From contig NZ_JAHBGD010000013.1 of the NCBI RefSeq assembly GCF_018390605.1, positions 1-32,418 of the forward strand: a stretch of DNA of 32,418 bases, read 5' to 3'. Numbering within the stretch: the stretch's first letter is position 1; every line of letters starts with the position of its first letter. The notes under the pieces are model-generated. The model was not told where the DNA came from. It was given only the letters and a program-made list of their open reading frames with translations, and searched no databases. The translations under genes were made by a program, and so were the position numbers. This document shows, piece by piece, positions 5,984 through 32,416 of this stretch. This DNA is from Ancylobacter defluvii (GTDB taxonomy: Bacteria; Pseudomonadota; Alphaproteobacteria; Rhizobiales; Xanthobacteraceae).

Positions 5984-6008
5984 TTTCGCGGAAGTCCCCG
6001 CGGGCAGC

Positions 6009-8617: not shown

Positions 8618-8702
8618 GACACGGTGTTCTTTCAAAGGCGCACGATAGCAGGGAGGAAGGCGGCCATGCGGGGCAGACGCATCGCCGCTGCGATCCGGAG
8701 GG

Positions 8703-9542: not shown

Positions 9543-9576
9543 ATGTGTCTCCTCTGGAAAGGCATGCGGGGGCGTG

Positions 9577-9594
9577 CCGCCGAGCACGCGGCGG
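9577..9594. other. Intercistronic hairpin between permease and binding-protein genes
   Basis: CCGCCG-AGCACG-CGGCGG is a perfect 6-bp GC stem with a 6-nt loop, in the 91-nt gap inside the left ABC operon. No T-run follows. It could stabilise the downstream mRNA or cause partial termination. Confidence 0.4.
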
Positions 9595-9633
9595 TTGGTG
9601 TCGGTGGAATGGAGGCGACGGCGGCGTGGCTGG

Positions 9634-10359
9634 TCAGAGCGCCTGCCGCAGCTTCAGGAGCCACGGGAAGCGCGCCTTGTCTGGCGGCGCCCCGGAGAGA
9701 TGGAGTTCGATGAGGTTGAACAATCGCGAGGCTAGGAATGTCAGGCCGAGATAGATCGCGCCGGCGGCGATGAAGACCTCGTAGGGAGCGAAGGTCTCAG
9801 AGACCAGCTTTCGCGCCAGTCCGGTGATCTCCAGCAGCGTGACCGTGCTGGCCAGCGAGCTTGCCTTGATCATGCCGACAACTTCGTTGGCATAGGAGGG
9901 CAGCACGGTGCGGAAGGCGAGCGGGAACACGATCCGCAGGCGGATCTTGGTGGGCGACAGGCCGATCGCCTGTGCCGCTTCGACGAGGCCCGGCGGCACG
10001 GACTGAATGCCGCCCCGGAACACCTCGATGGTATACGCCGCACTGTTGAGCGAGAAGGCAAGCAAGGCGCAGTAGAACGGATCGCGGAACAGCAGCCACA
10101 AGAAGCTTTCGCGCACGAAGGCGAGCTGGCTGAGCCCGTAGTAGATGAGGAACAGCTGAACCAGCAGCGGCGTTCCGCGGAACACATAGGTATAGGCGAG
10201 TACCGGCATCGACAGCCATTGCGAGCGGGAGGCCCGCATGAAGGCCAGCGGCACGGATAGGCCGAAGCCGATGAGGAGCGACAGGATGGTGAGCTCCAGC
10301 GTCAGCACGACGCCACCCAGCAGGGTCTCGATGCTCTCGGTGATGAGGGCGATATCCAT
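9634..10359 (-). CDS. Polar amino-acid ABC transporter permease (HisM type)
   Basis: 241 residues from the ATG at 10359, preceded by GAGGG; an in-frame upstream start at 10404 would run back into the previous gene. This inner-membrane subunit has about five helices and the family's N-terminal layout (TLLGGVVLTLELTILSLLIG). The coupling-loop signature is EAAQAIGLSPTKIRLRIVFPLAFR (about 144-167), which docks onto the ATPase subunit. The family motif VFRGTPLLVQLFLIYYGL is also present. It starts 10 nt after the partner permease, as the second half of the heterodimeric channel. Confidence 0.92.
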   Translation of the reverse strand: MDIALITESIETLLGGVVLTLELTILSLLIGFGLSVPLAFMRASRSQWLSMPVLAYTYVFRGTPLLVQLFLIYYGLSQLAFVRESFLWLLFRDPFYCALLAFSLNSAAYTIEVFRGGIQSVPPGLVEAAQAIGLSPTKIRLRIVFPLAFRTVLPSYANEVVGMIKASSLASTVTLLEITGLARKLVSETFAPYEVFIAAGAIYLGLTFLASRLFNLIELHLSGAPPDKARFPWLLKLRQAL

Positions 10360-10369
10360 GGCGTAACCC

Positions 10370-11029
10370 TCAATGTACCGGGGCGAGCATGCGGCGCTCG
10401 ACAAGACGGAATGTCAGCAGGGAGAAGCTGGTGAGCATCAGGTAGAGCGCCGACGCCGCGAGATAGAAGGTCAGCGGATCGCGCATCGAACCGGCACCGA
10501 CCACGGCGACGCGCATGATGTCGGAGAGACCCACGATCGAAATGAGCGACGTGTCCTTGAGCAGCGAAATCCAGAGATTGCACAGGGCTGGAAGCGCGAT
10601 CCGCGCCATCTGGGGCAGAATGACCAGCAGCCACGTCTGCCAGGGTGCCAGTCCGATCGACAGCGCGGCTTCGGTTTGCCCGCGCGGAATGGCCTGGATT
10701 GCTCCCCGGAAAATCTCCGTGGCATAAGCGCCGAACACCACGGTCAGGCTAAAGACCCCCGCCCACAGCGCGCTGACCTCGACATAGGAGCCGACCAGCG
10801 CGGTGAGCGCGGCGGTGCCACCGAAATAGACGAGGAGAATGACCAGCAGCTCCGGCACGCCACGCACGATGGTTGTGTAGGCATCGGCGACCATTCGCAG
10901 CGCGCGGAAGCGCGATAGCTTTGCCGCCGCGCCCGCAAGCCCCACCAGCATGCCGAAGGCGCCACTGATGGCGGCCACCAGCACCGTCGTCTCCAGACCG
11001 CGCAGGAACTGTTCCTCAAAACCTCCCAT
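10370..11029 (-). CDS. Polar amino-acid ABC transporter permease (HisQ type)
   Basis: 219 residues from the ATG at 11029, chosen because a GAGGG ribosome-binding site sits 8 nt before it; an ATG at 11047 overlaps the ATPase stop codon but has none. It is an inner-membrane subunit with FLRGLETTVLVAAISGAFG at the start, IVRGVPELLVILLVYFGG (family motif) and the coupling loop EAALSIGLAPWQTWLLVILPQMAR. It pairs with the next permease and the upstream ATPase. Confidence 0.92.
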   Translation of the reverse strand: MGGFEEQFLRGLETTVLVAAISGAFGMLVGLAGAAAKLSRFRALRMVADAYTTIVRGVPELLVILLVYFGGTAALTALVGSYVEVSALWAGVFSLTVVFGAYATEIFRGAIQAIPRGQTEAALSIGLAPWQTWLLVILPQMARIALPALCNLWISLLKDTSLISIVGLSDIMRVAVVGAGSMRDPLTFYLAASALYLMLTSFSLLTFRLVERRMLAPVH

Positions 11030-11040
11030 CGCCGACACCC

Positions 11041-11862
11041 TCAACATACCGGATCGAGAAAACGGCGCAGCCCCGCCGAGGCCGGCCGGGACAGCACCTC
11101 TTCGGGAGGGCCCTCTTCCTCGATCCGCCCGCCCTGCATGAAGGCGACGCGGCTGGACACCTCGCGGGCGAAGGAAAGCTCGTGGGTGACGAGGATCATG
11201 GTCCGCCCTTCCTCCGCGAGGCTGCGGATCGCGCGCAGCACCTCACCCGTCAGTTCCGGGTCGAGCGCCGACGTCGGCTCGTCGAACAGCAGCACCTCCG
11301 GCTCCATGGCGAGAGCGCGTGCGATGGCGACCCGTTGCTGCTGGCCACCGGACAGGTGGCGGGGATAATGGTCGCGCCGCTCGATCAGCCCCACCTTGCG
11401 CAGATAGTGTTCGGCGCACTCCGTGGCGGCCCGGCGCGTCAGTCCGCGCACGTGGACCGGCCCTTCCATGACGTTCTCAAGCGCGGTCTTGTGCGGCCAG
11501 AGATTGAAGCTCTGGAACACCATGCCCAGCGAGGCCCGCACGCGACGCGCCTGACGCGCATCACCGATGCGCGCACCGTTGCGACCGGCGGGAGGCCGGA
11601 TATCGAGCTTCTCGTCGCGGAACCAGATTTCGCCACTGTCAGGCACTTCGAGCAGGTTGAGACAGCGCAGCAAGGTGCTCTTGCCCGAGCCGCTGGCACC
11701 CAGCACCGAGATGACCTCATGGGGATAGGCCGCGAGACTGACCCCACGCAGAACCGGATGCGTGCCCAGCGTCTTGTGCACATTCTCGGCGCGCAATGAG
11801 GCGATCGCCGCCGCGCGCCCGCGACGCGGGTTTTCCGAATGAATGTCGATCGCTGTTTGCAT
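11041..11862 (-). CDS. Polar amino-acid ABC transporter ATPase (HisP/GlnQ type)
   Basis: 273 residues, the first gene of the left importer operon, on the cytoplasmic face. It has Walker A GASGSGKS (55-62), Q-loop Gln117, signature LSGGQQQR (170-177), Walker B LLFDE (191-195), the D-loop SALD and switch His227, so all motifs for ATP hydrolysis are intact. The first 20 or so residues are extra relative to the family core and rich in Arg; a shorter start cannot be excluded. The insert RPPAGRNGARIGDARQARRVRAS before the Q-loop is normal for this subfamily. It is divergent from a LysR gene that probably controls it. Confidence 0.94.
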   Translation of the reverse strand: MQTAIDIHSENPRRGRAAAIASLRAENVHKTLGTHPVLRGVSLAAYPHEVISVLGASGSGKSTLLRCLNLLEVPDSGEIWFRDEKLDIRPPAGRNGARIGDARQARRVRASLGMVFQSFNLWPHKTALENVMEGPVHVRGLTRRAATECAEHYLRKVGLIERRDHYPRHLSGGQQQRVAIARALAMEPEVLLFDEPTSALDPELTGEVLRAIRSLAEEGRTMILVTHELSFAREVSSRVAFMQGGRIEEEGPPEEVLSRPASAGLRRFLDPVC

Positions 11863-14079: not shown

Positions 14080-14913
14080 ATGTTTCATCGTATGTCACGC
14101 CTCGCCGGCGGGCTGGTCGCGCTCGCCATGGGCCTGGGCCTGAACGTCGCTGCCGCGCAGGAATCCCGCCTCGATACCATCGTCAAGCGCGATAAGGTGA
14201 TCGTCGCCGTTTCGTCGACGGCCCGCCCCAACGGCTTCATCGACGAGAATGGCAGGCACACCGGCTTCGAGGTCGAATTCGCCCGGCTGATGGCCAAGGC
14301 GCTGGTCGGCGATCCCGACAAGATCGAACTGATGACCACCACCGTCGATGGCCGCTTCCCCGCCGTGCTGTCCGGCAAGGCGGATTTCGGCATCTCCACC
14401 GCCACCATCTATCCTGACCGGGCGGTGCGCCTCGCCTTCACCCGTCCCTACATTGATTCCAGCACGCTGGTCGTGGTGCCCAAGGGCTCGCAGATCAAGA
14501 CGCTGGCGGATCTCGACAATGAGAACGTGGTGCTGGGCTCGACCAACAGCGCCGCCATGGTCGACCGCGCCAAGAAATACGCGCCGAAGGCAAAGGCCAT
14601 CTTCTTCGACACCGACAGCGCCGCCGCCCTGGCGCTGAAGAGCGGCCGCTCGACCGCCTGGCAAGCGGATTCGGCGGCGGCGAACTTCTTCGTCGGGCAC
14701 AATGGCGATGAGTTCGTGGTGCTCGACGGCTCGCTCGGCACCATCAACAACAACGCCATCTTCATGAAGCCTGGCGACTTCCCGCTCTGGCTGGCGCTCG
14801 ACACCATCGTGCGTGAGTACGTCAACGGTTCGCGCTACGGCGAATATGCCGCGCTGTACAAGACGTGGTTCGGCAAGGAGCCGCCGCCCCAGCGGCCGTT
14901 CAACCAGAACTGA
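14080..14913 (+). CDS. Amino-acid ABC transporter, periplasmic binding protein (right module)
   Basis: 277 residues with a strong AGAGGG ribosome-binding site. A signal peptide (about 1-26, ending NVAAA-Q) is followed by a family-3 solute-binding domain: GFEVEFARLMAKAL, AVLSGKADFGISTATIYPDRAVRLAFTRPYIDSS, where the Arg and the Ser/Thr cluster bind the ligand's alpha-carboxylate and amino groups. The tail PPPQRPFNQN is proline-rich. It is the first gene of a plus-strand operon (binding protein, two permeases, ATPase, racemase-like protein). Sequence similarity to the left module's binding protein is only at family level, so the ligand probably differs. Confidence 0.93.
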   Translation: MFHRMSRLAGGLVALAMGLGLNVAAAQESRLDTIVKRDKVIVAVSSTARPNGFIDENGRHTGFEVEFARLMAKALVGDPDKIELMTTTVDGRFPAVLSGKADFGISTATIYPDRAVRLAFTRPYIDSSTLVVVPKGSQIKTLADLDNENVVLGSTNSAAMVDRAKKYAPKAKAIFFDTDSAAALALKSGRSTAWQADSAAANFFVGHNGDEFVVLDGSLGTINNNAIFMKPGDFPLWLALDTIVREYVNGSRYGEYAALYKTWFGKEPPPQRPFNQN

Positions 14914-14934
14914 CGGCCGAAAGAGCGTCCGTCC

Positions 14935-15588
14935 ATGGATTTCGGCTTTATCCTCAACAATGCACCTCTGCTGATGGAGGGGGCGGCGATGACCGTCGCC
15001 CTCGCCATCGGCGCCCTGCTCGGCGCCACGATCGGTGGCGGCGTGGTGGCGGGCCTGCGCATGAGCCGCCATGCGCCGCTCCGCTGTGTCGGCGCCGGCT
15101 TCGTCGAGATCATGCGCAACACGCCCATCCTCGTGCAGATCTTCGTGCTGTATTTCGGCTTGCCGACGCTGGGCGTGCACATGTCGGCATTCACCTCCGC
15201 CGTGCTGGCGATGTCGCTGCAGAACAGCGCCTATATCGGCGAGATCTACCGCGCGGGGCTGGAATCGATCCATCCGCGCCAGCGGGAGGCGGCACTGGCG
15301 TTGGGCATGATGCCCGGCATGGCGCTGAGGGTCATCCTGCTGCCGCAGGCGCTTCGCCGCGTCCTGCCGCCGCTCGGCAACCAGTTCATCATCATCATCA
15401 AGGACACCTCGGTCGCCTCGACCATCGCGGTCGCCGAACTGACCCAGGCCAGCAAGCTGCTGCTGGACCGCAGTGCCGCCCCCTACGAGACCTTCGCGAC
15501 GGTCGCCCTGATCTACCTCGCCATCAGCGCAGGCGTCGCCGGCGTGCTGAAGCTCGCCGAATGGCGCTATCCGGTGAGGGTTTCGTGA
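14935..15588 (+). CDS. Amino-acid ABC transporter permease 1 (right module)
   Basis: 217 residues, inner membrane, about five helices. It shows LLMEGAAMTVALAIGALLGA at the start, the family motif IMRNTPILVQIFVLYFGLP and the coupling loop EAALALGMMPGMALRVILLPQALRRVLPPL, followed by KDTSVASTIAVAELT. It starts 21 nt after the binding-protein stop codon. Its own stop overlaps the next start by one base (TGATG), so the two permeases are coupled. Confidence 0.93.
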   Translation: MDFGFILNNAPLLMEGAAMTVALAIGALLGATIGGGVVAGLRMSRHAPLRCVGAGFVEIMRNTPILVQIFVLYFGLPTLGVHMSAFTSAVLAMSLQNSAYIGEIYRAGLESIHPRQREAALALGMMPGMALRVILLPQALRRVLPPLGNQFIIIIKDTSVASTIAVAELTQASKLLLDRSAAPYETFATVALIYLAISAGVAGVLKLAEWRYPVRVS

Positions 15589-16235
15589 TGACGTCCGCCA
15601 TGCTGACCTCCTCCGCGCTTTACCTCGCGCAGGGCGCGCTGGTGACGATCGGCCTGTCACTGGGGATCATCGCCGTCGCCACCGTCGCCGGCATGCTGCT
15701 GGCCTTGCTCCGTCTCTATGGCTGGAGGCCTCTGGGGCTTCTGGCGGCAGCCTATGGGCTGGTGGCGCGCGGCGTGCCGCTGCTGGTGCTGCTGATCGGC
15801 AGCTATTTCAGCCTGCCCTATCTGGGCCTCGACATGCCGCTCTGGCTGGTCGTGGTGCTGATCGGCGGCCTGTACTTCGCCGCCTATGCCGCGGAGGTGT
15901 TCCGGGCAGCGCTGGCAGCGGTGCCGCGCACGCAGTGGGATGCCGGCCGGGCTTTGGGCATGCGGCGCTTTCAGCTCTTCACCATCGTGATCCTGCCGCA
16001 GGCGCGGCGTCTCAGCCTCCCGCCCTTCCTGAACGTGGCTCTGGTCGCGGTGAAGAACACGTCGCTGGTTTCCGCCATCGGCGGCTGGGAACTGGTCGCG
16101 GCCGGACGCGAGATCGGCGAGCGGACCATGGAAATACTCCCCGCCTACCTAGCCGTCGCTGCGTTCTATTTCGTGATCTGCTTCTCAATCTCGCAGATCG
16201 GGCGCCATGTCGAAAAGAAGATGCGCTATGTCTGA
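15588..16235 (+). CDS. Amino-acid ABC transporter permease 2 (right module)
   Basis: 215 residues from the ATG that shares one base with the preceding stop codon; a longer in-frame reading from 14865 only passes through the previous gene in another frame. It is an inner-membrane subunit with ALYLAQGALVTIGLSLGIIA, LVARGVPLLVLLIGSYFSLP and the coupling loop DAGRALGMRRFQLFTIVILPQARR. The last residues (IGRHVEKKMRYV) are the usual positive tail. It forms the second half of the channel with permease 1. Confidence 0.92.
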   Translation: MTSAMLTSSALYLAQGALVTIGLSLGIIAVATVAGMLLALLRLYGWRPLGLLAAAYGLVARGVPLLVLLIGSYFSLPYLGLDMPLWLVVVLIGGLYFAAYAAEVFRAALAAVPRTQWDAGRALGMRRFQLFTIVILPQARRLSLPPFLNVALVAVKNTSLVSAIGGWELVAAGREIGERTMEILPAYLAVAAFYFVICFSISQIGRHVEKKMRYV

Positions 16236-17034
16236 CCTCATCCCCCCTGCCACCCCCGCGCCGCTGGTCGTCATCGACCGCGTGGGCAAGTCGTTTGGCC
16301 CGGTCGAAGTCCTCAAGGAGGTCAGCCTCACCGTCGCCGCAGGGGACGTGCTCTCCCTCATCGGCCCCAGCGGGTCGGGCAAGACCACGCTTCTGCGCTG
16401 CGTGAACTACCTCGAAACCTATGAGCGGGGCCTGATCACCATCGCCGGCGAAAGCGTCGGCATCGAGCAACTGCCCGATGGTCGGCGCCGCCGCAAGTCG
16501 GACCGGCAGATCGCGGCACTTCGGGCGCAAGTCGGCATGGTGTTCCAGCACTACAACCTGTTCCCGCATCTCGACGTGCTGGAGAATCTCACCGTGGCGC
16601 CGTGCCGCGTTCATGGTGAGGCGCTGGGTCCGGTGCGTGAGCGCGCGCTCGCCCTTCTCGAGCGGGTCGGCCTTGCCGATAAGCGCCACCGCTATCCTTC
16701 CGAGCTTTCAGGCGGCCAGCAGCAGCGGGTAGCGATCGCCCGGGCGCTCACCATGCAGCCCCGCCTGCTTCTGCTCGATGAGGTGACCTCCGCCCTCGAC
16801 CCGGAACTGGTGGGCGAGGTGCTCGACGTCATCACCTCGCTGGCGGCCGACGGCATCACCATGATGATCGTGACCCATGAAATGGCTTTCGCACGCGAAG
16901 TTTCGACCTCGGTCGCCTTCATGGCGGAAGGCCGGCTCATCGAGAACGGGACACCGGAGGCCATCTTCGAGGCGCCCCATCACGAACGCCTGCGCAGCTT
17001 CATGCAGCGCTACCGCGCGGGGAACCGGCTGTGA
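16228..17034 (+). CDS. Amino-acid ABC transporter ATPase (right module)
   Basis: 268 residues from the ATG at 16228, which overlaps the permease stop by 8 nt; an upstream ATG at 16207 is possible. It has Walker A GPSGSGKT (46-53), Q-loop Gln107, signature LSGGQQQR (160-167), Walker B LLLLDE (180-185) and switch His217, all intact. The residue after the Walker B Glu is Val (DEVTSALDPE) where the family mostly has Pro. It couples ATP hydrolysis to the two permeases just upstream. Confidence 0.94.
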   Translation: MSDLIPPATPAPLVVIDRVGKSFGPVEVLKEVSLTVAAGDVLSLIGPSGSGKTTLLRCVNYLETYERGLITIAGESVGIEQLPDGRRRRKSDRQIAALRAQVGMVFQHYNLFPHLDVLENLTVAPCRVHGEALGPVRERALALLERVGLADKRHRYPSELSGGQQQRVAIARALTMQPRLLLLDEVTSALDPELVGEVLDVITSLAADGITMMIVTHEMAFAREVSTSVAFMAEGRLIENGTPEAIFEAPHHERLRSFMQRYRAGNRL

Positions 17035-17066
17035 GAGCGCCTTCATCCATCCAGGAATTCACCTCA

Positions 17067-18188
17067 ATGTCCGCCCCCTTGCGCCCGACCTGGTGCGAGA
17101 TCGATCTCGGCGCCATCGCTCACAATGTGCGCCAGCTGCGCCACCTCATCGGTCCGGCTGTCGCGATTTATATGTGCCTCAAAGGCGACGCGAGCGGCTG
17201 CGGCGCCGCGGAAGTAGCGCGGCGGGCCGAGGCGGAAGGCGTCGACGGCTTCGCGTTCGGCAACATCGACAGTGCCCTCGCCTGCCGCGCCGCCGGCATC
17301 AAACGCCCGATCCTGCTCTATCCCACCTGCCTGCCCGACAGCGCGCCCCTGCTGGAACAGGCTGAACTGATGCCCACGCTCTCCACGCTGGGGGACGTCG
17401 TCCTCTGGGATCGGGCGGCCCGCCACCGCCTGCCGGTTTTCCTGAAGATCGACGGCGGGGGCTTCCGGGCCGGCGCCTTCCCGCATGAGGCCGCGGCGAT
17501 GGCGCGTGCGATCACCGATAGCCGTCATCTTCGTCTGGCGGGGGTCTATGGCCACCCGATGACGAGTTACGGCTTCGATGACGAGCCCTACACCCTCGCC
17601 CAACTCGACGCGATCAAGCGGGCGCTTGCCGCCATCGAGGCGGAAGGCATCGAGGTGCCGATCCGCATGACCTCCAGCTCAGCGATCGTCCTGGGCCATC
17701 CCAACGCGGATCTGAATGCGGTGGATCCGGGGCGGCTTGTGGTCGGCATGTCGTTCCAGTCGGTGGCCAAGCGGCACGCAAGCTGGAAGCCCGCGCTGGT
17801 GGGATTGAAAAGCCGGCTTGTCATGGTGCGCGCGCTCGCGCCGACGGATGATCTCGTCCGGGCGCCCTTTCTGAGGCTCCGCCCGAACATGCGCTTGGGG
17901 CTCATTCCCTTCGGCTGGAGCGATGGCTATCCCAAGTCCATGCCGCCCAACGCTACGGCGCTGATCCGCGGAAGGCGGGTTCCGCTGCTCGGCCCCTCGC
18001 ACTCGGAACTGCTGCGCGTGGACCTGACGGATGTGCCGGACGCGCAGGTCGGCGACGAGGTGGTCCTCCTCGGCCGTTCGGGTGATGTCGCTATCCAGAT
18101 TGAGGAACTGGCGGAACAGTGGCGGATGTCGACGCACGAGCTGTTTCCCGCCATCGGAAAGACCCTACCGCGTCGTTACATCGACTAA
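17067..18188 (+). CDS. Alanine-racemase-fold protein lacking catalytic tyrosines
   Basis: 373 residues from the ATG at 17067, with an AGGAA ribosome-binding site; a GTG at 17031 touching the ATPase gene would add 12. It follows the fold-type III PLP enzyme plan: a barrel opening WCEIDLGAIAHNVRQLR, then Lys39 (in CLKGDASGCG), at the place of the PLP lysine in KANAYGHG, KIDGGGFRAG for the usual KVDTGMGRLG, and a C-terminal beta domain (LIPFGWSDGYPK). By ungapped comparison with Geobacillus alanine racemase as I recall it, Tyr43 is Ser, the catalytic Tyr265 is Arg265, Tyr354 is His, and the Arg contacting the PLP ring nitrogen (Arg219) is Asp. Ordinary racemisation is therefore doubtful, while PLP binding through Lys39 remains possible. 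It is the last gene of the right ABC operon, so it probably acts on the imported compound. Confidence 0.8.
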   Translation: MSAPLRPTWCEIDLGAIAHNVRQLRHLIGPAVAIYMCLKGDASGCGAAEVARRAEAEGVDGFAFGNIDSALACRAAGIKRPILLYPTCLPDSAPLLEQAELMPTLSTLGDVVLWDRAARHRLPVFLKIDGGGFRAGAFPHEAAAMARAITDSRHLRLAGVYGHPMTSYGFDDEPYTLAQLDAIKRALAAIEAEGIEVPIRMTSSSAIVLGHPNADLNAVDPGRLVVGMSFQSVAKRHASWKPALVGLKSRLVMVRALAPTDDLVRAPFLRLRPNMRLGLIPFGWSDGYPKSMPPNATALIRGRRVPLLGPSHSELLRVDLTDVPDAQVGDEVVLLGRSGDVAIQIEELAEQWRMSTHELFPAIGKTLPRRYID

Positions 18189-23144: not shown

Positions 23145-25496
23145 CTATTTCACCTTCAGGGCGGCCAGCACGGCTTCCGGCCGGATCGGCAGGCGGCGCA
23201 GGCGCACCCCGACCGCCTCGAAGATCGCATTGCCGATCGCCGGCGCCACCACCGTCGTGCCGGGCTCGCCCAGCCCGACCGGCACCTCGGTGCTGTCGAC
23301 GAACTCCACCACCACCTCCGGCGTATCGATCATCCGCAGCGGCGTGTAGCTGTCGAGGTTGCGATCGCGCACCTGGCCGTTCTCGAACTCCGTGCCCTCG
23401 CAGAGCGCCATCGACAGGCCCCACAGCGCGGCGCCCTCGCATTGGGCGCGGGCGCTGTCGGGGTCCACCACGGTGCCGCAATCGACCACCAGCCAGATCT
23501 TCTGCACGTCGACGAAACCGGTCTGCCGGTCGACATGCAGCTGCACGGCGCCGCCGACCCAGGTGGGCATCGACCGCGCCTGGCCATAGGAGGTCGCCAC
23601 GCCGATCGCGGTGTCCGCCGGCAGTTTCGCCTTGCCGTAGCCGGACAGCGCGGCGACGCGGGCGAGCACCTGCGCCTGCCGTGCCGCGCCGCCGACCGAA
23701 TCCGGCGCGGTACCGGCATTGCGGCCCTCGGCCTTCAGATGGTCGAGGCGGAACCGCACCGGATCCTTGCCGACCTTCACCGCCGCTTCGTGCATGAAGC
23801 TCTCGATCGCCCAGTTGATCCAGCCCGGCGACACCGAGCGCAGCCAGCCGGGGCGGAAGGTGCTCTCCGCCAGATCGTTGGAGATCGCGCGCGCCCGCTG
23901 CGCCCCGACCGAATACCAGTGATCGACGCCGTCGCTGGCGAACGGATCATACGGCTCGCCATTGACGCCCTTGGGCATGAAGGCCGGCACCATCACCTTG
24001 GTCGGCCAGCCCGCCGCCACCGCCGTATCCATGGCGATGACATTCCGGTCCTGGTCGAACGCCATGCGCACCCGCTGGACCGAGGGCGAGCGCGGGCTGT
24101 CGAACCTGAGGTCGTCCGGCCGCGTCGCCACCATCTTCACCGGCTTGCCGCCGAGCGCCTTCGAGGCCAGCGCGACCGGCACCGCATAGTCGCCGTTGAG
24201 GCGCCGCCCGAAGCCGCCTCCCAGCAGGTAGCTGCGCATGACCACGCCGTTCTCGTCGACGCCGAGCGCCTTTTGCAGCCAGGGCAGCGCCAGCGACTGC
24301 CATTGATTGCCGGTGTGGATTTCCCAGACGCCCTCCGCATTGCGGAAGGCGAGCGCGTTCACCGGCTCCAGCTGGAAGTGCAGCACGGTCGCGGTGGTGT
24401 ATTCCGCCTCCATGGTCACGGCGGCGCGGGCGAATACCGGCACCACATCGGTGTCGCCGGTATCGAGCACCGCGCCCTTGGCGTCGTCGGCGATCAGCGC
24501 GCGCGCACGCTGCTGGATATCCGCCTCGCTCACCCGCGCGGCATCGCTCGGCTTCCACTCGACCCTGACGAGGCCCGCCGCCTTCTGGGCGGCCCAGTGG
24601 CTGTCGGCGATCACCATGGCCCAGCCGGGCGCGGTCCCGGACGGATCGTCGAGCTTGAGTGTCTGCTGATATCCCTTGATCGCCTTGGCGGAGCTGTCGT
24701 CGATGCGGACAATCTCCGATCCGTAGCGCGTCGGCGGCAGCAGGGGAGCCGCATGCACCATCCCCTCGACCTTGGCGTCGATGCCGAAGATGGCCTGCCC
24801 GGTGGTCTTGTCGGCGATGTCGAGCGCGGTGACGTCCTTGCCGACCAGCGTCAGCTCGGCATGCGGCTTCAGCGGCAGCGCCCTCAGCTCGTCCTCGGTG
24901 AAGCTGCGGGTTATGCCTTGCGCCACCAGCTCGCCGAAACCGGCGCTGCGGCCACCGCCGGACACCACGCCGTTGGCGACGCTGACCGCCGCCGGATCGA
25001 GGCCCCAGAGCTCGGCGGCCTTCTGCGCCAGCGCCACCCGCCCGGCCGCGCCGGCCTGGCGATAGACCGGCCAGCTCTGCCACACCGACCAACTGCCGCC
25101 GGTGACCATCAGCCCCCATTTGGCGGCGGTGTCGACATGCTCGATATGCACGTCGTCCCAGTTGGCGCCGAGTTCGTCGGCAAGGATGCGCGCAATGGCG
25201 GTGCCGACATGCTGGCCCATTTCGGCGCGGATGATGTTGACGTTGATCCGGCCCTCGGTATCGATCCAGTACCAGATGGCCGGCTCGTAGCGGGCACCGG
25301 CCGCCTCGATCGGCGTGCCGCCGGGCATCGCCGGATCCATCGCCGCCAAGCCGGCGCGCGGAAAGCCGAACACCGCGCCGGCGGCGCACATCGAGACGAG
25401 GAAACCGCGGCGGCTCAATCCACTTTCGCGCGAGCGGTCGGCCAAGCGGGCGCCATTATCGCGCGAGCGGGCGCGGAAGCGGGATTCGTCAGCCAT
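23145..25496 (-). CDS. Molybdenum hydroxylase large subunit, isoquinoline-1-oxidoreductase beta type, TAT-exported
   Basis: 783 residues. A twin-arginine signal (Arg29-Arg30 in LSRRGFLVS) and a hydrophobic stretch to about 52 route the folded enzyme to the periplasm. The mature part is the molybdopterin-binding chain of the xanthine dehydrogenase superfamily, IorB branch: WIDTEGRINVNIIRAEMGQHVGTA, the GGGFGRR motif in the middle (LLGGGFGRRLNGDY) and, near the end, GLGEPGTTVVAPAIGNAI with the Glu that acts as base in Mo hydroxylases. It pairs with the [2Fe-2S] subunit just upstream (8-nt overlap) and the tri-heme cytochrome. The reaction would be hydroxylation of an N-heterocycle or oxidation of an aldehyde; the substrate cannot be told from sequence. 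Confidence 0.9.
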   Translation of the reverse strand: MADESRFRARSRDNGARLADRSRESGLSRRGFLVSMCAAGAVFGFPRAGLAAMDPAMPGGTPIEAAGARYEPAIWYWIDTEGRINVNIIRAEMGQHVGTAIARILADELGANWDDVHIEHVDTAAKWGLMVTGGSWSVWQSWPVYRQAGAAGRVALAQKAAELWGLDPAAVSVANGVVSGGGRSAGFGELVAQGITRSFTEDELRALPLKPHAELTLVGKDVTALDIADKTTGQAIFGIDAKVEGMVHAAPLLPPTRYGSEIVRIDDSSAKAIKGYQQTLKLDDPSGTAPGWAMVIADSHWAAQKAAGLVRVEWKPSDAARVSEADIQQRARALIADDAKGAVLDTGDTDVVPVFARAAVTMEAEYTTATVLHFQLEPVNALAFRNAEGVWEIHTGNQWQSLALPWLQKALGVDENGVVMRSYLLGGGFGRRLNGDYAVPVALASKALGGKPVKMVATRPDDLRFDSPRSPSVQRVRMAFDQDRNVIAMDTAVAAGWPTKVMVPAFMPKGVNGEPYDPFASDGVDHWYSVGAQRARAISNDLAESTFRPGWLRSVSPGWINWAIESFMHEAAVKVGKDPVRFRLDHLKAEGRNAGTAPDSVGGAARQAQVLARVAALSGYGKAKLPADTAIGVATSYGQARSMPTWVGGAVQLHVDRQTGFVDVQKIWLVVDCGTVVDPDSARAQCEGAALWGLSMALCEGTEFENGQVRDRNLDSYTPLRMIDTPEVVVEFVDSTEVPVGLGEPGTTVVAPAIGNAIFEAVGVRLRRLPIRPEAVLAALKVK

Positions 25497-25962
25497 TGGT
25501 GGTCTCCCCCCGCAGCGCCGCGGCCGCCTCGCGCACCGCGGCGCGGATGCGGAGATAGGTCATGCAGCGGCAGAGATTGCCGGTCATCACCGCGTCGATG
25601 TCGTCGTCGGTCGGGCTGGGAATGTCCTTCAGGAAGGCGGCGGCCTGCATGATCTGGCCGGATTGGCAGTAGCCGCATTGCGGCACCCGCAAATGGCGCC
25701 AGGCCTGCTGCACCGGATGGTTGCCGGCGGGGTCCAGCCCCTCGATGGTGGTGATCTCGGTGCCGGCGACATCGCCCACCGGCGTGATGCAGGAACGCGT
25801 CGCCCGGCCGCCGACATGCACGGTGCAGGCGCCGCACATACCGATGCCGCAGCCATATTTGGTGCCGGTCAGGTCGATCGTGTCGCGGATCACCCAGAGC
25901 AGCGGCGTGTCGGCTTCGACGTCGACGCTGACGTTCCGCCCGTTGACCGTGAAGTCGATCAT
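25489..25962 (-). CDS. Molybdenum hydroxylase [2Fe-2S] small subunit
   Basis: 157 residues from the ATG at 25962; the frame is open further upstream but that part lies inside the cytochrome gene. It has a plant-ferredoxin-type cluster from Cys38, Cys43, Cys46 and Cys58 (CGIGMCGAC) and a second cluster in the helical domain from Cys96, Cys99, Cys131 and Cys133 (CGYC, then LCRC). This is the standard two-cluster subunit that passes electrons from the Mo site. It has no signal of its own and probably travels to the periplasm bound to the TAT-exported large subunit. The start is 13 nt after the cytochrome stop codon. Confidence 0.94.
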   Translation of the reverse strand: MIDFTVNGRNVSVDVEADTPLLWVIRDTIDLTGTKYGCGIGMCGACTVHVGGRATRSCITPVGDVAGTEITTIEGLDPAGNHPVQQAWRHLRVPQCGYCQSGQIMQAAAFLKDIPSPTDDDIDAVMTGNLCRCMTYLRIRAAVREAAAALRGETTNG

Positions 25963-25975
25963 GCCGATGCCCTCA

Positions 25976-27286
25976 TCAGTGTCCGGCGCCCTCGGCCCGG
26001 ATGCGCGCCACCTGCGCGGCGAGATCCGGCCAGGGGGCGAGATTGGCGCGCTTCTCGCGCAGATAGGCCGCCACCGCTGCGATCTCCGCATCCGACAGCG
26101 CGTGGCGGAAGGCCGGCATCACCACGCCGCCCATGCCGTTCTTCGCATCGACGCCGTCGAGGATGACGTGGATCAGGTTGGTGGGGTCGGCGAGCCGGGT
26201 GGAGGAGTTGATCGCCAGCTCCGGCCGCCCCTCGACGATGCGCGACGCATTGTAGTGGCAGGCGGCGCAGGCGGTGGCGTAGAGCCGCTCGCCGAGATCC
26301 TTGCGGTAGGTCGGGTCGGGGCGACCGGCCTTCAGGCTCGCCAGCACGGCGGGGTTGGCGGCGGGATCGGTGGCGGGCGCCCCGATCCCCGCGCCGAGAT
26401 AGGCGCCGATCGCCTCCAGGTCGCTCTTGGGCAGCTCGCGCAGGCCGGCATGCACCACCGGCCCCATCGGACCGGCGGCGATGCCGTGATAGACGCCCGC
26501 CCCGGTGCCGAGATAGCGGGTGAATTCGGCGGCGCTCCACGGCACCACCGAGGGATTGTCGGCGGTCAGCGCCGGGGCGATCCACCTGTCGATCGCGGCG
26601 CCGGCGAAGGCCTCGCCCTTCTTCTCGGCGCCTAAAAGATTGCGCGGCGTGTGGCAGGCGCCGCAATGCGTCACTCCCTCGACGAGATAGGCGCCGCGAT
26701 TCCATTGCTCGGATTTGCCGGGATCGGGCCGGTAGCGGCCGAAATCGACGAAGAGCAGCTTCCAGCCGGCCTGGAGGACCCGCTGGTTCAGCGGGAACGG
26801 CAAGGCGTTGTCCTTGGTCGTCTCCCGCACCGGCGCGACCTTGGCCATCAGGAAGGCATAGATCGCGTCGACGTCCTCGTCGCTCATCTTGGTGAAGTGA
26901 TCGAAGGGGAAGGCCGGCAGCAGATGCGCGCCCTCGCGGTCGACGCCGTCATGCATGGCGCGGCGGAAGGCGGCGGGCGACCAGCTGCCGAGCCCGGTTT
27001 CCGGGTCCGGCGTGATGTTGGAGGCGTAGATCGTGCCGAACCCGGTTTCCATCGGATAGTTGCCGGCATAGGGCTTGCCGCCGACCGCGGTGTGGCAGGT
27101 CGCACAGTAGCCCGCCGCCGCCAGGATCCGGCCCTTCTCGATCACCTCCGGGCTGAAGCTCGGACGCTCGGCGGCGCTCATGGCGGGCAGGCTCGGGTGA
27201 TAGGCGTACACCCCGAAGCCGGCCAGAGCAACGACCGCGGCCGCGACAACGATCGACAGCCAGAACTTGAAATTCAAGCGACGCAT
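25976..27286 (-). CDS. Tri-heme cytochrome c, electron acceptor of the Mo hydroxylase
   Basis: 436 residues. One N-terminal membrane anchor (about 9-29) precedes three cytochrome c domains with heme sites CATCH (61-65), CGACH (208-212) and CAACH (340-344). Likely axial Met ligands sit in the runs that follow each site. This layout is that of the membrane-bound tri-heme cytochromes that serve periplasmic dehydrogenases (alcohol, aldehyde or gluconate type) in alphaproteobacteria, handing electrons to ubiquinone or an oxidase. As the first gene before the two hydroxylase subunits, it should be their electron outlet. The AAAGG before the start is very close to the ATG, so the exact start is less certain. 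Confidence 0.92.
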   Translation of the reverse strand: MRRLNFKFWLSIVVAAAVVALAGFGVYAYHPSLPAMSAAERPSFSPEVIEKGRILAAAGYCATCHTAVGGKPYAGNYPMETGFGTIYASNITPDPETGLGSWSPAAFRRAMHDGVDREGAHLLPAFPFDHFTKMSDEDVDAIYAFLMAKVAPVRETTKDNALPFPLNQRVLQAGWKLLFVDFGRYRPDPGKSEQWNRGAYLVEGVTHCGACHTPRNLLGAEKKGEAFAGAAIDRWIAPALTADNPSVVPWSAAEFTRYLGTGAGVYHGIAAGPMGPVVHAGLRELPKSDLEAIGAYLGAGIGAPATDPAANPAVLASLKAGRPDPTYRKDLGERLYATACAACHYNASRIVEGRPELAINSSTRLADPTNLIHVILDGVDAKNGMGGVVMPAFRHALSDAEIAAVAAYLREKRANLAPWPDLAAQVARIRAEGAGH

Positions 27287-27446: not shown

Positions 27447-28289
27447 TCAGTCTTCCGCCTTCATGTAGGCAGCGAAGGCCTCGGCATAATCGGGATGCCA
27501 GCGCGACAGGGCCGGCCGGTTCTCGATGATGTCGCCCATGCCCCAGCGCATGCGCTTGAGGTCCATCTCGCGCGTCACTTCATTGTCGGGGCAGAGGATG
27601 TAGAAGTCCCGCTTGTCCAGGCCGTCCATCATGAAATCCGCCGTCTGGTCGGGCGTCCAGGCGCCAGCGGGCTTCTCGGTTACGCCCTTGGCGCGGGTGA
27701 AGCCGGTATAGACGAAGCCGGGGATCAGCAGATGCGCGCTGACCCGCCCGCCGGTCTGCTTGACGAGGTCGTGCGAGACCGATTCCGCCAGCGCCCGCAG
27801 CGCGGCCTTGGAGACGTTGTAGGCGGTGTCGCCCGGCGGTAGCGTGATGCCCTGCTTGGAGCCGGTCATCACCACGGCGCCGGGATGCGGCGAGCCGATC
27901 ATGTCCGGCAGAAAGGCCTGCAGGCCGTGGAACACGCCCCAGAAATTGGTCTCCAAGGTGCGCCGCCACACCGCCTCGCCGGCGGCAAATCCACCGCCGC
28001 CTTCGCGCCCGGCATTGCACATCAGCACCGACACCGGCCCCATCCGGTCCGCCTGTGCCTTCGCCGCGGCAATCTGGGCGATGTCCGTCACGTCGGTCGG
28101 CGCCGCCACCGCGTTGATGCCCTCGGCCCTGAGCGCCTCCACCGCCTGTGTGAGCGAAGGGCCGGGCAGATCCATGATCAGCACCGCCATCCCCGCCGCG
28201 CCGAAGCGCCGGGCGGCGGCAAGCCCGATGCCGCTGGCGCCGCCGGTGACCACCGCGACGCGTTCGGGTGCAATGGCCGGATGTGTCAT
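27447..28289 (-). CDS. SDR-family oxidoreductase
   Basis: 280 residues, soluble, with a GAGGG ribosome-binding site. It is a Rossmann-fold short-chain dehydrogenase: TGGASGIG (15-22) binds NAD(P), NAG (about 92-94) closes the sheet, and the active site is Ser (in MTGSKQG) with Tyr and Lys in YNVSK. Asp40 after strand 2 (in LIMDLPG) suggests NAD(H) rather than NADP(H). The C-terminal part (RMRWGMGDIIENRPALSRWHPDYAEAFAAYM) is longer than the minimal fold and recurs in a subgroup of uncharacterised SDRs. It is divergent from the TRAP operon and 160 nt before the cytochrome gene, so it may belong to the same catabolic unit. Substrate unknown. Confidence 0.9.
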   Translation of the reverse strand: MTHPAIAPERVAVVTGGASGIGLAAARRFGAAGMAVLIMDLPGPSLTQAVEALRAEGINAVAAPTDVTDIAQIAAAKAQADRMGPVSVLMCNAGREGGGGFAAGEAVWRRTLETNFWGVFHGLQAFLPDMIGSPHPGAVVMTGSKQGITLPPGDTAYNVSKAALRALAESVSHDLVKQTGGRVSAHLLIPGFVYTGFTRAKGVTEKPAGAWTPDQTADFMMDGLDKRDFYILCPDNEVTREMDLKRMRWGMGDIIENRPALSRWHPDYAEAFAAYMKAED

Positions 28290-28566: not shown

Positions 28567-28672
28567 CTACATAATTTTATCTGATTAAATAATCATCTTT
28601 CCCTCTTCGGCGATGCTTCCCGCATGGGCATACGTAGAGTTACGGGTTGAGATCCCCCAACGTTTCTCCTTC

Positions 28673-28729: not shown

Positions 28730-29746
28730 ATGCTCACTCTCTCCTCCCTGAAGCGGCTTGCTACCCTGAAGCGGCTTGCGGCCATCGGTGTCGTCGCTTC
28801 GGTGCTCGGTGCCGCCGGGCTGGCCTCCCCGGCCCTCTCCCAAACCAAGCTGCGCCTTGCGGTGGAAACCAATTCCGGTGACCCGCTCAACATCATGCTG
28901 GCGAATTTCCGCGACGCTCTCGCCAAATCGGCCGGTTCGGAGGTCGCCATCGAGTTCTTCGAGGGTGGCGCGCTGGGCGACGAGACGGCGCTGATGGAGC
29001 TGATCCGCGCCGGCGAAGTGCAGGTGGTGCCGCTCGGCTCGGATGTCGTCACCCTCGACAAGGGCTTCTCCGTGCTCGACACCCCCTTCCTGTTCGCCGA
29101 CAAGGCCAGCGCCCGCGCCGCCTTTGACGGCAGGTTCGGCGAACTGCTCGCCGCCTCGCTGCGCGAGAAGGCCGGCCTTCAGGTGCTGGCCTTCGGCGAG
29201 CTCGGTTTCCGCACCATCTCGACCACGGCCAAGCAGATCAACGTCCCGGCCGACCTCAAGGGCCTGAAGATCCGCACGCCGGGCAGCCCGACCCGCATCC
29301 TCGCCTTCAAGACGCTGGGCGCGGCGCCCACCCCGATGCCGCTCGGCGAAGTCTATATGGCGCTCAAGCAGGGGGCGCTGGACGGCCAGGAGAACCCGCT
29401 TTCGGTGATCAAGGACTTCTCCTTCTTCGAGGTGCAGAAGTTCATCGCCCTGACCAACCACGTCTACACGCCCATCACCCTCGCCATGAACGGCGCCGCC
29501 TATGACGCGCTCTCGGCGGAGATGAAGGCCAAGCTGAAGGACGCCGCCAAGGCCGGCTCCGCCGCCACCCGCAAGGTCTCCGACGACAGCGACGCCCGCC
29601 TCGTCGACGAGTTCAAGTCGAAGGGCGTGACGGTGACGACCCCCGACCTCGCCGCCTTCCGTACCGCGGCCGAGCCGGTGAAGGGCGAGATCGCCAAGGT
29701 GGTTGGGCCCGATCTGATGACCAAGCTCGAAGCCAGCCTGAAGTGA
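28730..29746 (+). CDS. dctP: TRAP transporter substrate-binding protein (DctP family)
   Basis: 338 residues from the ATG at 28730 (AAGGA ribosome-binding site); an open frame further upstream is promoter sequence. A signal peptide of about 36 residues ends PALSQ and contains a doubled LKRLA motif from a 16-nt direct repeat. The mature part is the DctP fold: ETNSGDPLNIMLANFRDAL, ALMELIRAGEVQVVPLG, then LKGLKIRTPGSPTRILAFKTLGA with the Arg that grips the substrate carboxylate, and EVYMALKQGALDGQENPL, a family hallmark. A carboxylate ligand is therefore likely. The next gene suggests a malonate-type acid. Confidence 0.95.
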   Translation: MLTLSSLKRLATLKRLAAIGVVASVLGAAGLASPALSQTKLRLAVETNSGDPLNIMLANFRDALAKSAGSEVAIEFFEGGALGDETALMELIRAGEVQVVPLGSDVVTLDKGFSVLDTPFLFADKASARAAFDGRFGELLAASLREKAGLQVLAFGELGFRTISTTAKQINVPADLKGLKIRTPGSPTRILAFKTLGAAPTPMPLGEVYMALKQGALDGQENPLSVIKDFSFFEVQKFIALTNHVYTPITLAMNGAAYDALSAEMKAKLKDAAKAGSAATRKVSDDSDARLVDEFKSKGVTVTTPDLAAFRTAAEPVKGEIAKVVGPDLMTKLEASLK

Positions 29747-29766: not shown

Positions 29767-30564
29767 ATGACTTCGATCACTGGTGAGGAAGCCCGCAAGG
29801 GCTTCCGTTACGACGGCTACGCCACACTCGGCCGCCTCGGCCTCATCTACATCGCCTCCAGCATCGTCATGGACGCCGAATGGGCGGCCATGGCGGCGCC
29901 GGGGCTGTCGATCCATACCACCCGCGTGCGCCTGCCGAAGGTGACGCTGGAAGGCATCGACCAGATGATGAACGCGCCGGAGCTGGAGCAATCCGCCCGG
30001 CTGGTCGGCTCGGCGCCGATCGATGTGTTGTGCTTCGGCGGCACCAGCGCCTCCTTTGTCTACGGCACCGCCTATGACAAGGCGCTGATCGGCCGCATGG
30101 AGGGTTGGGCACCGGGCGTGAAGGCGACCACCGCCTCCACCGCCTCGCTCGCCGCGCTCGCCGAGGTGAAGGCCGGCCCGGTGGCGCTGGCGACGCCCTA
30201 TGTCGACGCCATCCACCAGCGGGCGATCAACTTCCTCGAATCGAACGGCCACAAGGTGCTCAACAGCGGCAATCTCGGCATCGACGAGGATTGGGCGCTG
30301 GCCGACGTGCCGCTGGAGAAGGTGTTCGACCACGTCGTCGCCTGCGACCACCCGGACGCCACGGCGATCTTCATCTCCTGCACCAATTTCCGCTCCGCCG
30401 GCGTCATCGAGGCGCTGGAGACCGCGCTCGGCAAGCCGGTGATCTCCGCCGTGCAGGCCTCGTTCTGGCACTGCCTGGAGGTGGCCGGCATCGACGGCGC
30501 GAGGCCCGGCTACGGGCGGTTGTTCGACCGCCGCCTCGCCACCGAGGGGGGATCGTCGACATGA
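29767..30564 (+). CDS. Arylmalonate decarboxylase-like enzyme (Asp/Glu racemase superfamily)
   Basis: 265 residues from the ATG at 29767; a GTG at 29743 overlapping the dctP stop would add 8. The superfamily has two facing active-site motifs, each with Cys in racemases. Here the first is FGGTSASF, with Gly92 in place of Cys, and the second is ISCTNF with Cys205 kept. The same Gly/Cys pair (Gly74 and Cys188) defines Bordetella arylmalonate decarboxylase, and the spacing agrees within one residue (113 against 114). Other stretches also match that enzyme as I recall it: VALATPYVDAIHQRAINFLE and, at the end, RPGYGRLFD. It would remove CO2 from a disubstituted malonate without cofactor, in the cytoplasm. 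Maleate isomerase relatives, which keep both Cys, are the alternative. Location between dctP and dctQ implies it acts on the imported acid. Confidence 0.82.
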   Translation: MTSITGEEARKGFRYDGYATLGRLGLIYIASSIVMDAEWAAMAAPGLSIHTTRVRLPKVTLEGIDQMMNAPELEQSARLVGSAPIDVLCFGGTSASFVYGTAYDKALIGRMEGWAPGVKATTASTASLAALAEVKAGPVALATPYVDAIHQRAINFLESNGHKVLNSGNLGIDEDWALADVPLEKVFDHVVACDHPDATAIFISCTNFRSAGVIEALETALGKPVISAVQASFWHCLEVAGIDGARPGYGRLFDRRLATEGGSST

Positions 30565-31133
30565 CCTTCAAGCTTCTGGAAGCGCGGCGCGCGCCCTCCG
30601 ACCTTATTGGCCGCGCCAGCCTCATCGGCGCGGCATCCTGGCTCGTCGAGACCGTCGGCATGGTGCTGATGGCGGTGCTGAGCCTGTTGGTGCTTGCCAA
30701 CGCCACCGGCCGCTATTTCTTCAACACCCCCCTTCCCTGGACGGAAGAGGTCGTCTCGATCCTGCTGGTATGGATCGCCGCGGTCGGCGTGGTGCTGGCG
30801 GCCGGGCGCGGCGCGCTGGTCGGCTGCGAGATCGTCACCGGCCGGCTGCCGCCGCAGCAGGCGCGGACCCTCACCCGCGCGATCAGCTTCGTCAGCGCCC
30901 TGCTGATGCTGGCCGTCGCCTGGTATTCCTGGCGCTACATGCAGGTGTTCGGCCGCGACGTCACGCCGATGCTCGACATCCCGAAATCCTGGATCTCCGG
31001 CGGCCTGCTCGCCGCCTCTCTCGGCATGGCCGCCGCGTTCCTCTACCGCACCGTCGTGCCGCACAAGCTGGTCCTCATCGAGGACATTGCGGAAGAGATC
31101 GCCGACCACCCGGCCCATGAGGTGAAACTATGA
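30561..31133 (+). CDS. dctQ: TRAP transporter small membrane subunit (DctQ)
   Basis: 190 residues from the ATG at 30561, which overlaps the preceding stop as ATGA. It has four hydrophobic helices, near 29-49, 61-82, 103-122 and 147-166. The family signature NATGRYFFNTPLPWTEEVVSILLVWIAAVG spans helices 1 and 2. It is the small inner-membrane partner that links the binding protein and DctM. Its tail (VLIEDIAEEIADHPAHEVKL) is acidic and slightly longer than usual. Confidence 0.93.
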   Translation: MTFKLLEARRAPSDLIGRASLIGAASWLVETVGMVLMAVLSLLVLANATGRYFFNTPLPWTEEVVSILLVWIAAVGVVLAAGRGALVGCEIVTGRLPPQQARTLTRAISFVSALLMLAVAWYSWRYMQVFGRDVTPMLDIPKSWISGGLLAASLGMAAAFLYRTVVPHKLVLIEDIAEEIADHPAHEVKL

Positions 31134-32416
31134 TGCTCGCTCTCGCCGGCGGCTCGCTCGCCGCCCTGTGCATCCTGGTGGTGATCGGCTTCCCGATCAT
31201 CGTGGCGCTGGTCGCCTCGGTGTTCATCTTCCTGTCGATCAGCGGCGGCTGGTCGCTCGCGCTGCCGCAGCAGACGCTCACCGGCGTCTCCGACTACATC
31301 CTCGTCACGCTGCCGCTGTTCATCCTCGCCGGCGGCATCATGAACAATGGCGGCATCGCCAAGCGGCTGTTCGACTTCGCGGTGGCGCTGGTCGGGTGGA
31401 TGCGCGGCGGCCTCGCCCATGTCGATGTGGTCACCTCGGTGCTGTTCGGCGGCATGATCGGCACCTCGGTGGCCGATCTCGCCGGCACCGGCTCGGTCAC
31501 CATCCCGCATCTGAAGAAGCACGGCTATCCCGGCCCCTTCGCGGCGGCGGTCACCGCGACCTCCTCGGGCATCGGCGTGCTGATCCCGCCCTCCTCGCCG
31601 ATGATCCTGTATTCGGCGGTGACCGGCACCTCGCTCGGCGCGCTGTTCCTCGCCGGCGTGGTGCCGGGCCTGCTCATGGGCGGCATGATGATGGGCGTGA
31701 TCTCCTACCTTGCCCCCCGCCGGGGCTGGGGCACCGCCGGCCCGTTCGTGCCGGCCGAGGTATGGCGCACCGGCAAGCGGGCGGTGCTGCCGCTCGGCCT
31801 GCCGGCCTTCATCCTGATCAGCCTGATCTCTGGCGTCTGCACGCCGAGCGAGGCCGGCGCCTTCGCCCTCGCCTATGCGTTCATCCTGTCGAAATTCGTC
31901 TACCGCTCCATCACCTGGTCGGAACTGCGCAAGGTGACGGTGGACGGGGTGATCATGACCGGCGAGGTGCTGATCGTGGTCGGCTTCTCCACCGCGCTCG
32001 GCTGGGCGCTGTCGCAGGCCAAGGTGCCGATGGTGCTGGCGGACGGCCTCCAGACGCTGTTCCCCTTCGAAGGGCAGACGCTGAAGCTGCTCGTGCTGCT
32101 GTTGCTGGCTCTGGTCGCCGGCATGGTGCTCGATCCGCTGATCCCGATGATCATGCCGGTGCTGCTGCCCTCGCTGATCGCCATGCAGGTCGATCTGGTG
32201 CATTTCGGCGTGCTGATCGTGGTGACGGTGGTGATCGGCCAGATCACCCCGCCGGTCGCCATCGCGATATTGGTCTCGGCCAAGATCGCGCGCGAGGATG
32301 TGGTGCATGTGTTCCGGGCCAACATGCCGTTCTTCTGGGGCATGGTCGCCTTCCTGATCCTGCTCACCGCGTTCCCGTGGCTCTCCACCGGCCTGCCGTC
32401 GCTGATGGCGGAATGA
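31130..32416 (+). CDS. dctM: TRAP transporter large membrane subunit (DctM)
   Basis: 428 residues, the usual length, with about 12 hydrophobic segments. It is the Na+-coupled channel of the TRAP importer. Family features are the early GFPIIVALVASVFIFL, TLPLFILAGGIMNNGGIAKRLFDFA, GMIGTSVADLAGTGSVTIPHLKKHGY, and the two pseudo-repeat ends IGVLIPPSSPMILYS and IGQITPPVAIAILVSAKIA, whose Pro-rich turns form the substrate site. The start overlaps the dctQ stop by 4 nt. It ends 2 nt before the window edge. Confidence 0.95.
   Translation: MMLALAGGSLAALCILVVIGFPIIVALVASVFIFLSISGGWSLALPQQTLTGVSDYILVTLPLFILAGGIMNNGGIAKRLFDFAVALVGWMRGGLAHVDVVTSVLFGGMIGTSVADLAGTGSVTIPHLKKHGYPGPFAAAVTATSSGIGVLIPPSSPMILYSAVTGTSLGALFLAGVVPGLLMGGMMMGVISYLAPRRGWGTAGPFVPAEVWRTGKRAVLPLGLPAFILISLISGVCTPSEAGAFALAYAFILSKFVYRSITWSELRKVTVDGVIMTGEVLIVVGFSTALGWALSQAKVPMVLADGLQTLFPFEGQTLKLLVLLLLALVAGMVLDPLIPMIMPVLLPSLIAMQVDLVHFGVLIVVTVVIGQITPPVAIAILVSAKIAREDVVHVFRANMPFFWGMVAFLILLTAFPWLSTGLPSLMAE

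Follow-up and report, generated by a model that had tools for sequence, protein, structure and literature searches.

The window, meaning the whole 32,418-base stretch analysed here, corresponds to bases 1-32418 of contig C5 in the 5.28 Mb genome of Ancylobacter defluvii and carries, on its plus strand, an operon ordered dctP, enzyme gene, dctQ, dctM, in which an enzyme of the Pfam family PF17645 (Amdase) is encoded within a tripartite ATP-independent periplasmic (TRAP) transporter gene set. The solute-binding protein gene dctP (28730..29746, +; PF03480, 247 bits) belongs to a frame whose longest form opens at 28613, with 28730 as the start that fits its homologues; it is followed by the gene for the 265-residue enzyme, assigned by profile, alignment and structure model to a single-cysteine clade (29767..30564, +; ATG at 29767 to TGA at 30564, an ATG that agrees with the N-termini of close homologues), and by the genes for the small permease DctQ (30561..31133, +; PF04290, 87 bits) and the large permease DctM (31130..32416, +; PF06808, 330 bits). 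A first-pass annotation of the same DNA had placed the enzyme gene between dctP and dctQ, with overlapping stops and starts: coordinates and Pfam matches agree with the placement, and the enzyme stop indeed shares the ATGA at 30561-30564 with the dctQ start, as dctQ and dctM share four bases at 31130-31133. The dctP stop (29744-29746) is instead separated from the enzyme ATG by a 20-base gap, so that those two genes overlap only if an alternative GTG at 29743 is used. A promoter scan 5' of dctP returned a single weak match with 0.7 expected by chance, and is not evidence of a promoter. With DctP, DctQ and DctM all present, together with the Arg/Arg/Asn triad described below, the flanking genes encode what is, as judged from sequence, a TRAP transporter of organic anions.

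Enzyme family and active site

The nearest named matches of the enzyme, all at 97% identity, come from Ancylobacter sonchi, A. oerskovii and Ancylobacter sp. Lp-2. It scores 112.2 bits against PF17645 (gathering score 25.9), and only two NCBIfam models matched, those of EutA (TIGR02990; 129 bits, below the 318-bit cut-off) and of arylmalonate decarboxylase (AMDase; NF052327; 104.8 bits, below the 225-bit cut-off), with EutA outscoring AMDase. A structure model (predicted local distance difference test score, pLDDT, 91.4; predicted template modelling score, pTM, 0.90) predicts an Asp/Glu-racemase fold matching PDB entries 2xec and 3dg9, and structural alignments give 30-34% identity to the Bordetella AMDase. 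By alignment, Gly92 and Cys205 pair with Gly74 and Cys188 of that enzyme, in line with the active-site pair picked out in the first-pass annotation.

The same annotation had described the protein as an arylmalonate-decarboxylase-like enzyme, and this we do not sustain. Of the 12 AMDase criteria of Maimanakos et al. 2016 (PMC4996985), whose screen required 43% identity by BLAST, the enzyme retains Gly74 with Cys188, Thr75/Ser76, Tyr126, Leu40 and Val43 as Gly92/Cys205, Thr93/Ser94, Tyr145, Leu56 and Val59, and has a similar residue, Leu178, in place of Met159. It departs from the others at Pro14/15 (Ile29/Ala30), Tyr48 (Ile64), Val156 (Asp175) and Gly189 (Thr206), and at the two sequence motifs, where FGGTSASF shares 5/8 residues with LMGTSLSF and IFISCTNF 3/8 with ILLSCGGL. 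By alignment, the corresponding plus-strand codons lie at 30040..30048 for the first active-site motif, Gly92-Thr93-Ser94 (AMDase Gly74-Thr75-Ser76), at 30199..30201 for Tyr145 of the dioxyanion hole, at 30289..30291 for Asp175 and at 30379..30384 for Cys205 and Thr206. These departures from the published criteria, the low identity, both missed cut-offs and a separate position in the tree argue strongly against a true AMDase; a true EutA was likewise rejected on its cut-off, its cysteine count and the lack of a eutB/eutC set in the 83 loci described below.

Conservation was assessed over 83 loci (80 from a genome-contig scan and 3 plasmid records, carrying 39 genus or metagenome-assembled genome (MAG) labels) together with the window. 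Gly92, Asp175, Cys205 and Thr206 are each present in 84/84 rows and Leu56 and Val59 in 83/84, figures that are inflated for Gly92, Cys205 and Thr206, since the 80 scanned loci are the best 80 of 188 relatives found by demanding FGGTSASF[LV] or [IV]F[IV]SCTNF and many rows are near duplicates. A less biased check is provided by a 43-row alignment of close relatives (the window plus 42 of the best 120 of 492 matches), in which Gly92, Asp175 and Cys205 are invariant and no row has a cysteine at position 92, one of the results that the first-pass annotation had named as fatal to its reading; the single-cysteine, AMDase-like geometry is upheld, and a two-cysteine racemase or maleate isomerase is rejected. 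The locus L158, found by an independent EutA-profile search, likewise has Gly, Asp and Cys at these positions. All 39 EutA-affinity rows carry Cys opposite Gly92; opposite Asp175, 36 of them carry Asp, 2 Asn and 1 Glu. Read from the alignments, the clade is thus one that combines AMDase-like Gly92, Leu56 and Val59 with EutA-like Asp175 and Thr206.

The Gly/Cys pair alone is insufficient for an AMDase assignment, as glycine also occupies the first position in the rows L132, L003 and L004. Cys89, a second cysteine three residues before Gly92, was considered as a substitute first cysteine and rejected: the position is Cys in only 53/84 rows (Leu in 24, Val in 7) and is therefore not a conserved catalytic residue. 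The window's genome also encodes four paralogues of the enzyme on other contigs (L002/L119, L003, L004 and L005, on C20, C19, C18 and C3, respectively), of which one is a two-cysteine EutA-affinity protein, two have Gly at the first position and one has neither cysteine (Ala, Ser).

In an 86-row tree, the enzyme family forms one branch of 20 rows (support 100/99), to which neither the three rows of the AMDase clade nor the 39 with EutA affinity belong. Forcing a joint clade with AMDase lowers the likelihood by 6.6 to 7.4 log units and is not rejected (approximately unbiased test, p-AU 0.179; 0.18 without five long rows), nor is a forced joint clade with the EutA-affinity rows, which lies 1.66 log units above the free tree (p-AU 0.571).

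Solute-binding protein and genomic neighbourhoods

The modelled DctP (pLDDT 90.5) finds its best sequence matches with known structure in 4pdh, 4p9k and 4nq8, at 34-38% identity. Its Arg161, Arg182 and Asn222 (numbered in the 338-residue form) are invariant in 28/28 rows and correspond, by a common offset of 9 extrapolated from the first aligned pair (35/26), to Arg152, Arg173 and Asn213 of 4P47, described as typical carboxylate-binding residues (PMC11668362); a carboxylate ligand is therefore expected. The first strand of DctP ends in Glu46, which has acidic counterparts in TeaA and UehA, a hint of a cationic ligand. A glutamate at this type of position presumably contacts ectoine. The DctP proteins near the enzyme in L023, L024 and L040 are another paralogue (39-40% identity to that of the window) without Glu46, and the one in L202 resembles that of L040.

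The tight link between enzyme and TRAP transporter proposed in the first-pass annotation is borne out by gene order. In the 83 loci, open reading frames were clustered by single linkage at 32% identity over 60% of length, so that paralogues may be lumped; cluster names derive mostly from one member's profile match or from an annotated Shinella record, potB and potC were named by position, and clusters found in fewer than four labels, along with many others, were left unnamed. Directly upstream of the enzyme, on the same strand and within 250 bases, lies dctP in 38/83 loci and a potC-like gene in 7/83, and counting again from the homology-based start of the enzyme, under a stricter limit, likewise gives 38 for dctP, gaining L019 and losing L088. 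The gene directly downstream encodes a HisJ-type ATP-binding cassette (ABC) binding protein, of an amino-acid-type importer, in 16/83 loci, all from Achromobacter and Bordetella.

Over the wider stretch covered for each locus, usually 9 kb on either side, a set of genes recurs: LysR (57 of 83), dctP (45), GhrA-like (43), DUF1028 (41), RidA (39), potD-like (39), type II dehydroquinase-like (35), M20/argE-like deacylase (34), quinone oxidoreductase-like (34), glutathione S-transferase (GST; 24), FAD monooxygenase-like (22) and HpaB-like (8). In Mycolicibacterium and Nocardia, the dctP-enzyme TRAP unit is found together with HpaB, RidA and DUF1028, and the unit therefore crosses phyla. Genes of ectoine catabolism, queried by BLAST with the eutB, eutC, doeA and doeB proteins of two plasmid records, are scarce among the 83 loci, a set that does not include the window itself: eutC in none, eutB in one as a weak match (L050, 30%), and doeA and doeB in one each (L097). 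The latter locus, from a Rhodospirillales MAG, has, at 4643-10241, DoeA-like (31-32%) and DoeB-like (28-30%) frames next to the family member that diverges most among those compared (45%), and a link to ectoine-like substrates is possible there.

None of the named genes flanking the window's operon belongs to this recurring set. A DUF1028 search located the set on contig C17 of the same genome (L099, ~599-610 kb). One strand there carries HpaB, M20, RidA, DUF1028, HbpS-like, GST and dehydroquinase-like frames, and the opposite strand carries those for LysR, HutD, GhrA-like and potD/B/C-like products. In this genome, HutD on C17 stands without the enzyme, which sits in the TRAP operon on C5. 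The equivalent stretch of the same-genus genome G407 contains both a TRAP operon and an enzyme homologue (69% identity to that of the window), the latter flanked by LysR and HutD and sharing one base of its stop with the HutD start; in L041, which appears to be the same contig as G405:C84, the order is LysR, enzyme, HutD, GhrA-like.

Around the operon, a short-chain dehydrogenase gene (27447..28289, -; PF00106) diverges from the operon on its upstream side and also adjoins it in Ancylobacter sonchi (86% identity). Still farther upstream, consecutive genes at 23145-27286 (-) encode a molybdopterin-binding subunit, a [2Fe-2S] subunit and a cytochrome c protein, the combination seen in hydroxylases of heteroaromatic compounds or aldehydes, and an RND-type efflux pair, named from sequence and not by profile search, lies 3' of the operon. 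In other parts of the window, ABC permease and ATPase genes precede one for an alanine racemase (14865-18188, +; PF01168/PF00842), and two LysR genes are close by. The window also carries another ABC set, of amino-acid type (8703-11862), and consecutive genes for a histidine kinase, a response regulator and a cytochrome b561 (3969-6893, -), with a P-type ATPase gene nearby at 490-2790.

Proposed reaction and its alternatives

We tentatively favour a model, to which we give somewhat less than an even chance, in which the clade enzyme uses Cys205 as its sole acid-base residue, acting alpha to a carboxylate on a nitrogen-containing acid imported by the surrounding TRAP transporter. Such an acid appears likelier than an arylmalonate given the RidA and M20 genes and the alternation of TRAP and amino-acid-type ABC importers, which recalls ectoine operons (PMC5924519). 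The proposal that DctP would offer a direct way to the natural AMDase substrate lacks support; the neighbouring genes suggest a different kind of compound. Thr93, Ser94 and Tyr145 would hold the carboxylate as an enediolate in a dioxyanion hole, as proposed for AMDase, and Cys205, with no cysteine opposite, would protonate it on one face only. Racemisation fits one-face protonation less well than would decarboxylation of a malonate-type acid or one-way isomerisation. Between the last two, we lean slightly towards decarboxylation, with a polar malonate-type acid as substrate, because the AMDase leaving-group pocket has kept hydrophobic residues at four of its five positions (Leu56, Val59, Ile64 and Leu178). 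Asp175 could bind a substrate ammonium or ring nitrogen, or strain the leaving carboxylate, and the product would then be passed on to the co-conserved enzyme set, encoded on another contig in this genome and including flavin monooxygenase, RidA, M20 deacylase and GhrA-like dehydrogenase.

Several observations weigh against this model. The main counter-argument comes from the nearest profile, that of EutA, for which inversion of a hydroxyectoine stereocentre is proposed (PMC5924519); as Asp175 is shared with the EutA-affinity proteins, it is no argument for decarboxylation. The conservation counts are inflated as described above, a different paralogue of the TRAP binding protein (~40% identity) accompanies the enzyme in some loci, and 14/83 loci have no gene of the named set directly beside the enzyme in the same direction, although one of these, L019, does have dctP directly upstream on the recount. 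Within the genus, moreover, the association of the enzyme with DUF1028 is not significant: across 30 genomes the enzyme occurs in 14, DUF1028 in 25 and both in 13 (13/14 versus 12/16, Fisher p 0.34), and the co-occurrence across all 61 genomes (p 0.0006) mostly reflects shared ancestry.

The EutA affinities carry over into a competing explanation that we regard as a real possibility, namely that the enzyme is a EutA relative that lost the first cysteine and acts as a one-base isomerase, epimerase or tautomerase on an imported amino-acid-like compound, with no loss of CO2 and with the other face served by another group, perhaps Asp175 or water. Its best NCBIfam match is EutA (129 bits versus 105 for AMDase), Asp175 and Thr206 are common to EutA, itself a proposed racemase (PMC5924519), and the joint clade with EutA-affinity rows is the better-scoring of the two constrained trees, the AMDase alternative also not being rejected. 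Position 92 is Gly, not Cys, in all family members compared, and this, the AMDase-like Leu56 and Val59, and the absence of an identified second base speak against it. A further alternative, a genuine arylmalonate decarboxylase supplied with arylmalonates by the TRAP system, would account for the PF17645 match (112 bits), for the retained equivalents of Gly74/Cys188, Thr75/Ser76, Tyr126, Leu40 and Val43, and for the TRAP genes sometimes found alongside true AMDases (PMC4996985); we consider it very improbable in view of the changes at Pro14/15, Tyr48, Val156 and Gly189, a score below the 225-bit cut-off, 30-34% identity against the 43% of the published screen, and a separate clade whose neighbour set includes RidA and M20 genes.

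The gene order could also have arisen by chance gene movement, with the TRAP system carrying something other than the enzyme's substrate. The enzyme adjoins hutD and ghrA-like genes instead in the same-genus G407 and in L041, and ~1.7 kb separates it from downstream TRAP genes in L023-L027, five loci of the Ancylobacter group, with DctP being another paralogue in both aligned loci (L023 and L024). The recurrence of the dctP-enzyme order in 38/83 loci across Alpha- and Gammaproteobacteria and Actinomycetota, and the stop/start overlap with dctQ in the window, make such a passenger role unlikely. We also entertain, as a rather doubtful reading, that a second lineage reached the single-cysteine design of AMDase independently, from two-cysteine EutA-type racemases. 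Its enzyme would then hold the central carbon-acid step, probably by decarboxylating a malonate-type acid with an amino or imino substituent, in an undescribed, TRAP- or ABC-fed pathway of N-heterocycle catabolism spread across Proteobacteria and Actinomycetota. Were the enzyme a decarboxylase, cofactor-free, stereospecific decarboxylation would be extended to polar substrates, and the gene context makes both substrate and reaction testable.

Relation to known systems

TRAP genes beside true AMDases were reported in 2016, in two of eight clusters and with the suggestion that such transporters may import the substrate (PMC4996985), a remark repeated in a 2018 review (PMC5812351); the operon idea of the first-pass annotation is therefore not new in kind. 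Its view that the natural substrate of AMDases is unsettled is shared by the 2016 study, which gives that substrate as unknown and finds a mandelate racemase/MLE gene, not strictly defining, beside 61% of true AMDases (PMC4996985). The biochemistry of the ectoine catabolic enzymes, EutA included, was in its infancy according to a 2018 review (PMC5924519), and the excerpts of PMC5320631 treat ectoine and other MocR regulons, not the neighbour set of the clade. Among open-licence PubMed Central papers, we found no description of the clade, its mixed signature or its recurring pathway set, nor a paper on a neighbour set with DUF1028 or on a glutamate-racemase-family gene with RidA and TRAP genes; absence from that collection does not prove that none exists.

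With the AMDase of Bordetella bronchiseptica (EC 4.1.1.76; PDB 3dg9/2vlb/3ixl), in which CO2 is removed and the enediolate is protonated by Cys188, and whose G74C form is described as a racemase (PMC4996985), the enzyme shares the fold, the Gly74/Cys188 pair, Thr75, Ser76, Tyr126, Leu40 and Val43, as well as the TRAP genes near some members, but it differs in the replacement of Pro14/15, Tyr48, Val156 and Gly189, in its separate clade and in neighbours that include RidA and M20. EutA (TIGR02990), of ectoine and hydroxyectoine utilisation, gives the best NCBIfam score and shares the Asp175 and Thr206 equivalents and operons with TRAP or ABC importers, yet has two active-site cysteines rather than one, and its operon partners eutB, eutC, doeA and doeB are not typical of the clade's loci. 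Maleate cis-trans isomerase (PDB 2xec, 4fq7) is more distant, at ~24% identity, and has its first cysteine where the enzyme has Gly92. The TRAP binding proteins DctP, TeaA and UehA, for their part, share with the window's DctP the family 7 fold and the Arg/Arg/Asn carboxylate triad. The clade joins signatures of AMDase and EutA within a richer context, comprising a dedicated importer, often a LysR regulator, and some eight recurring enzyme genes.
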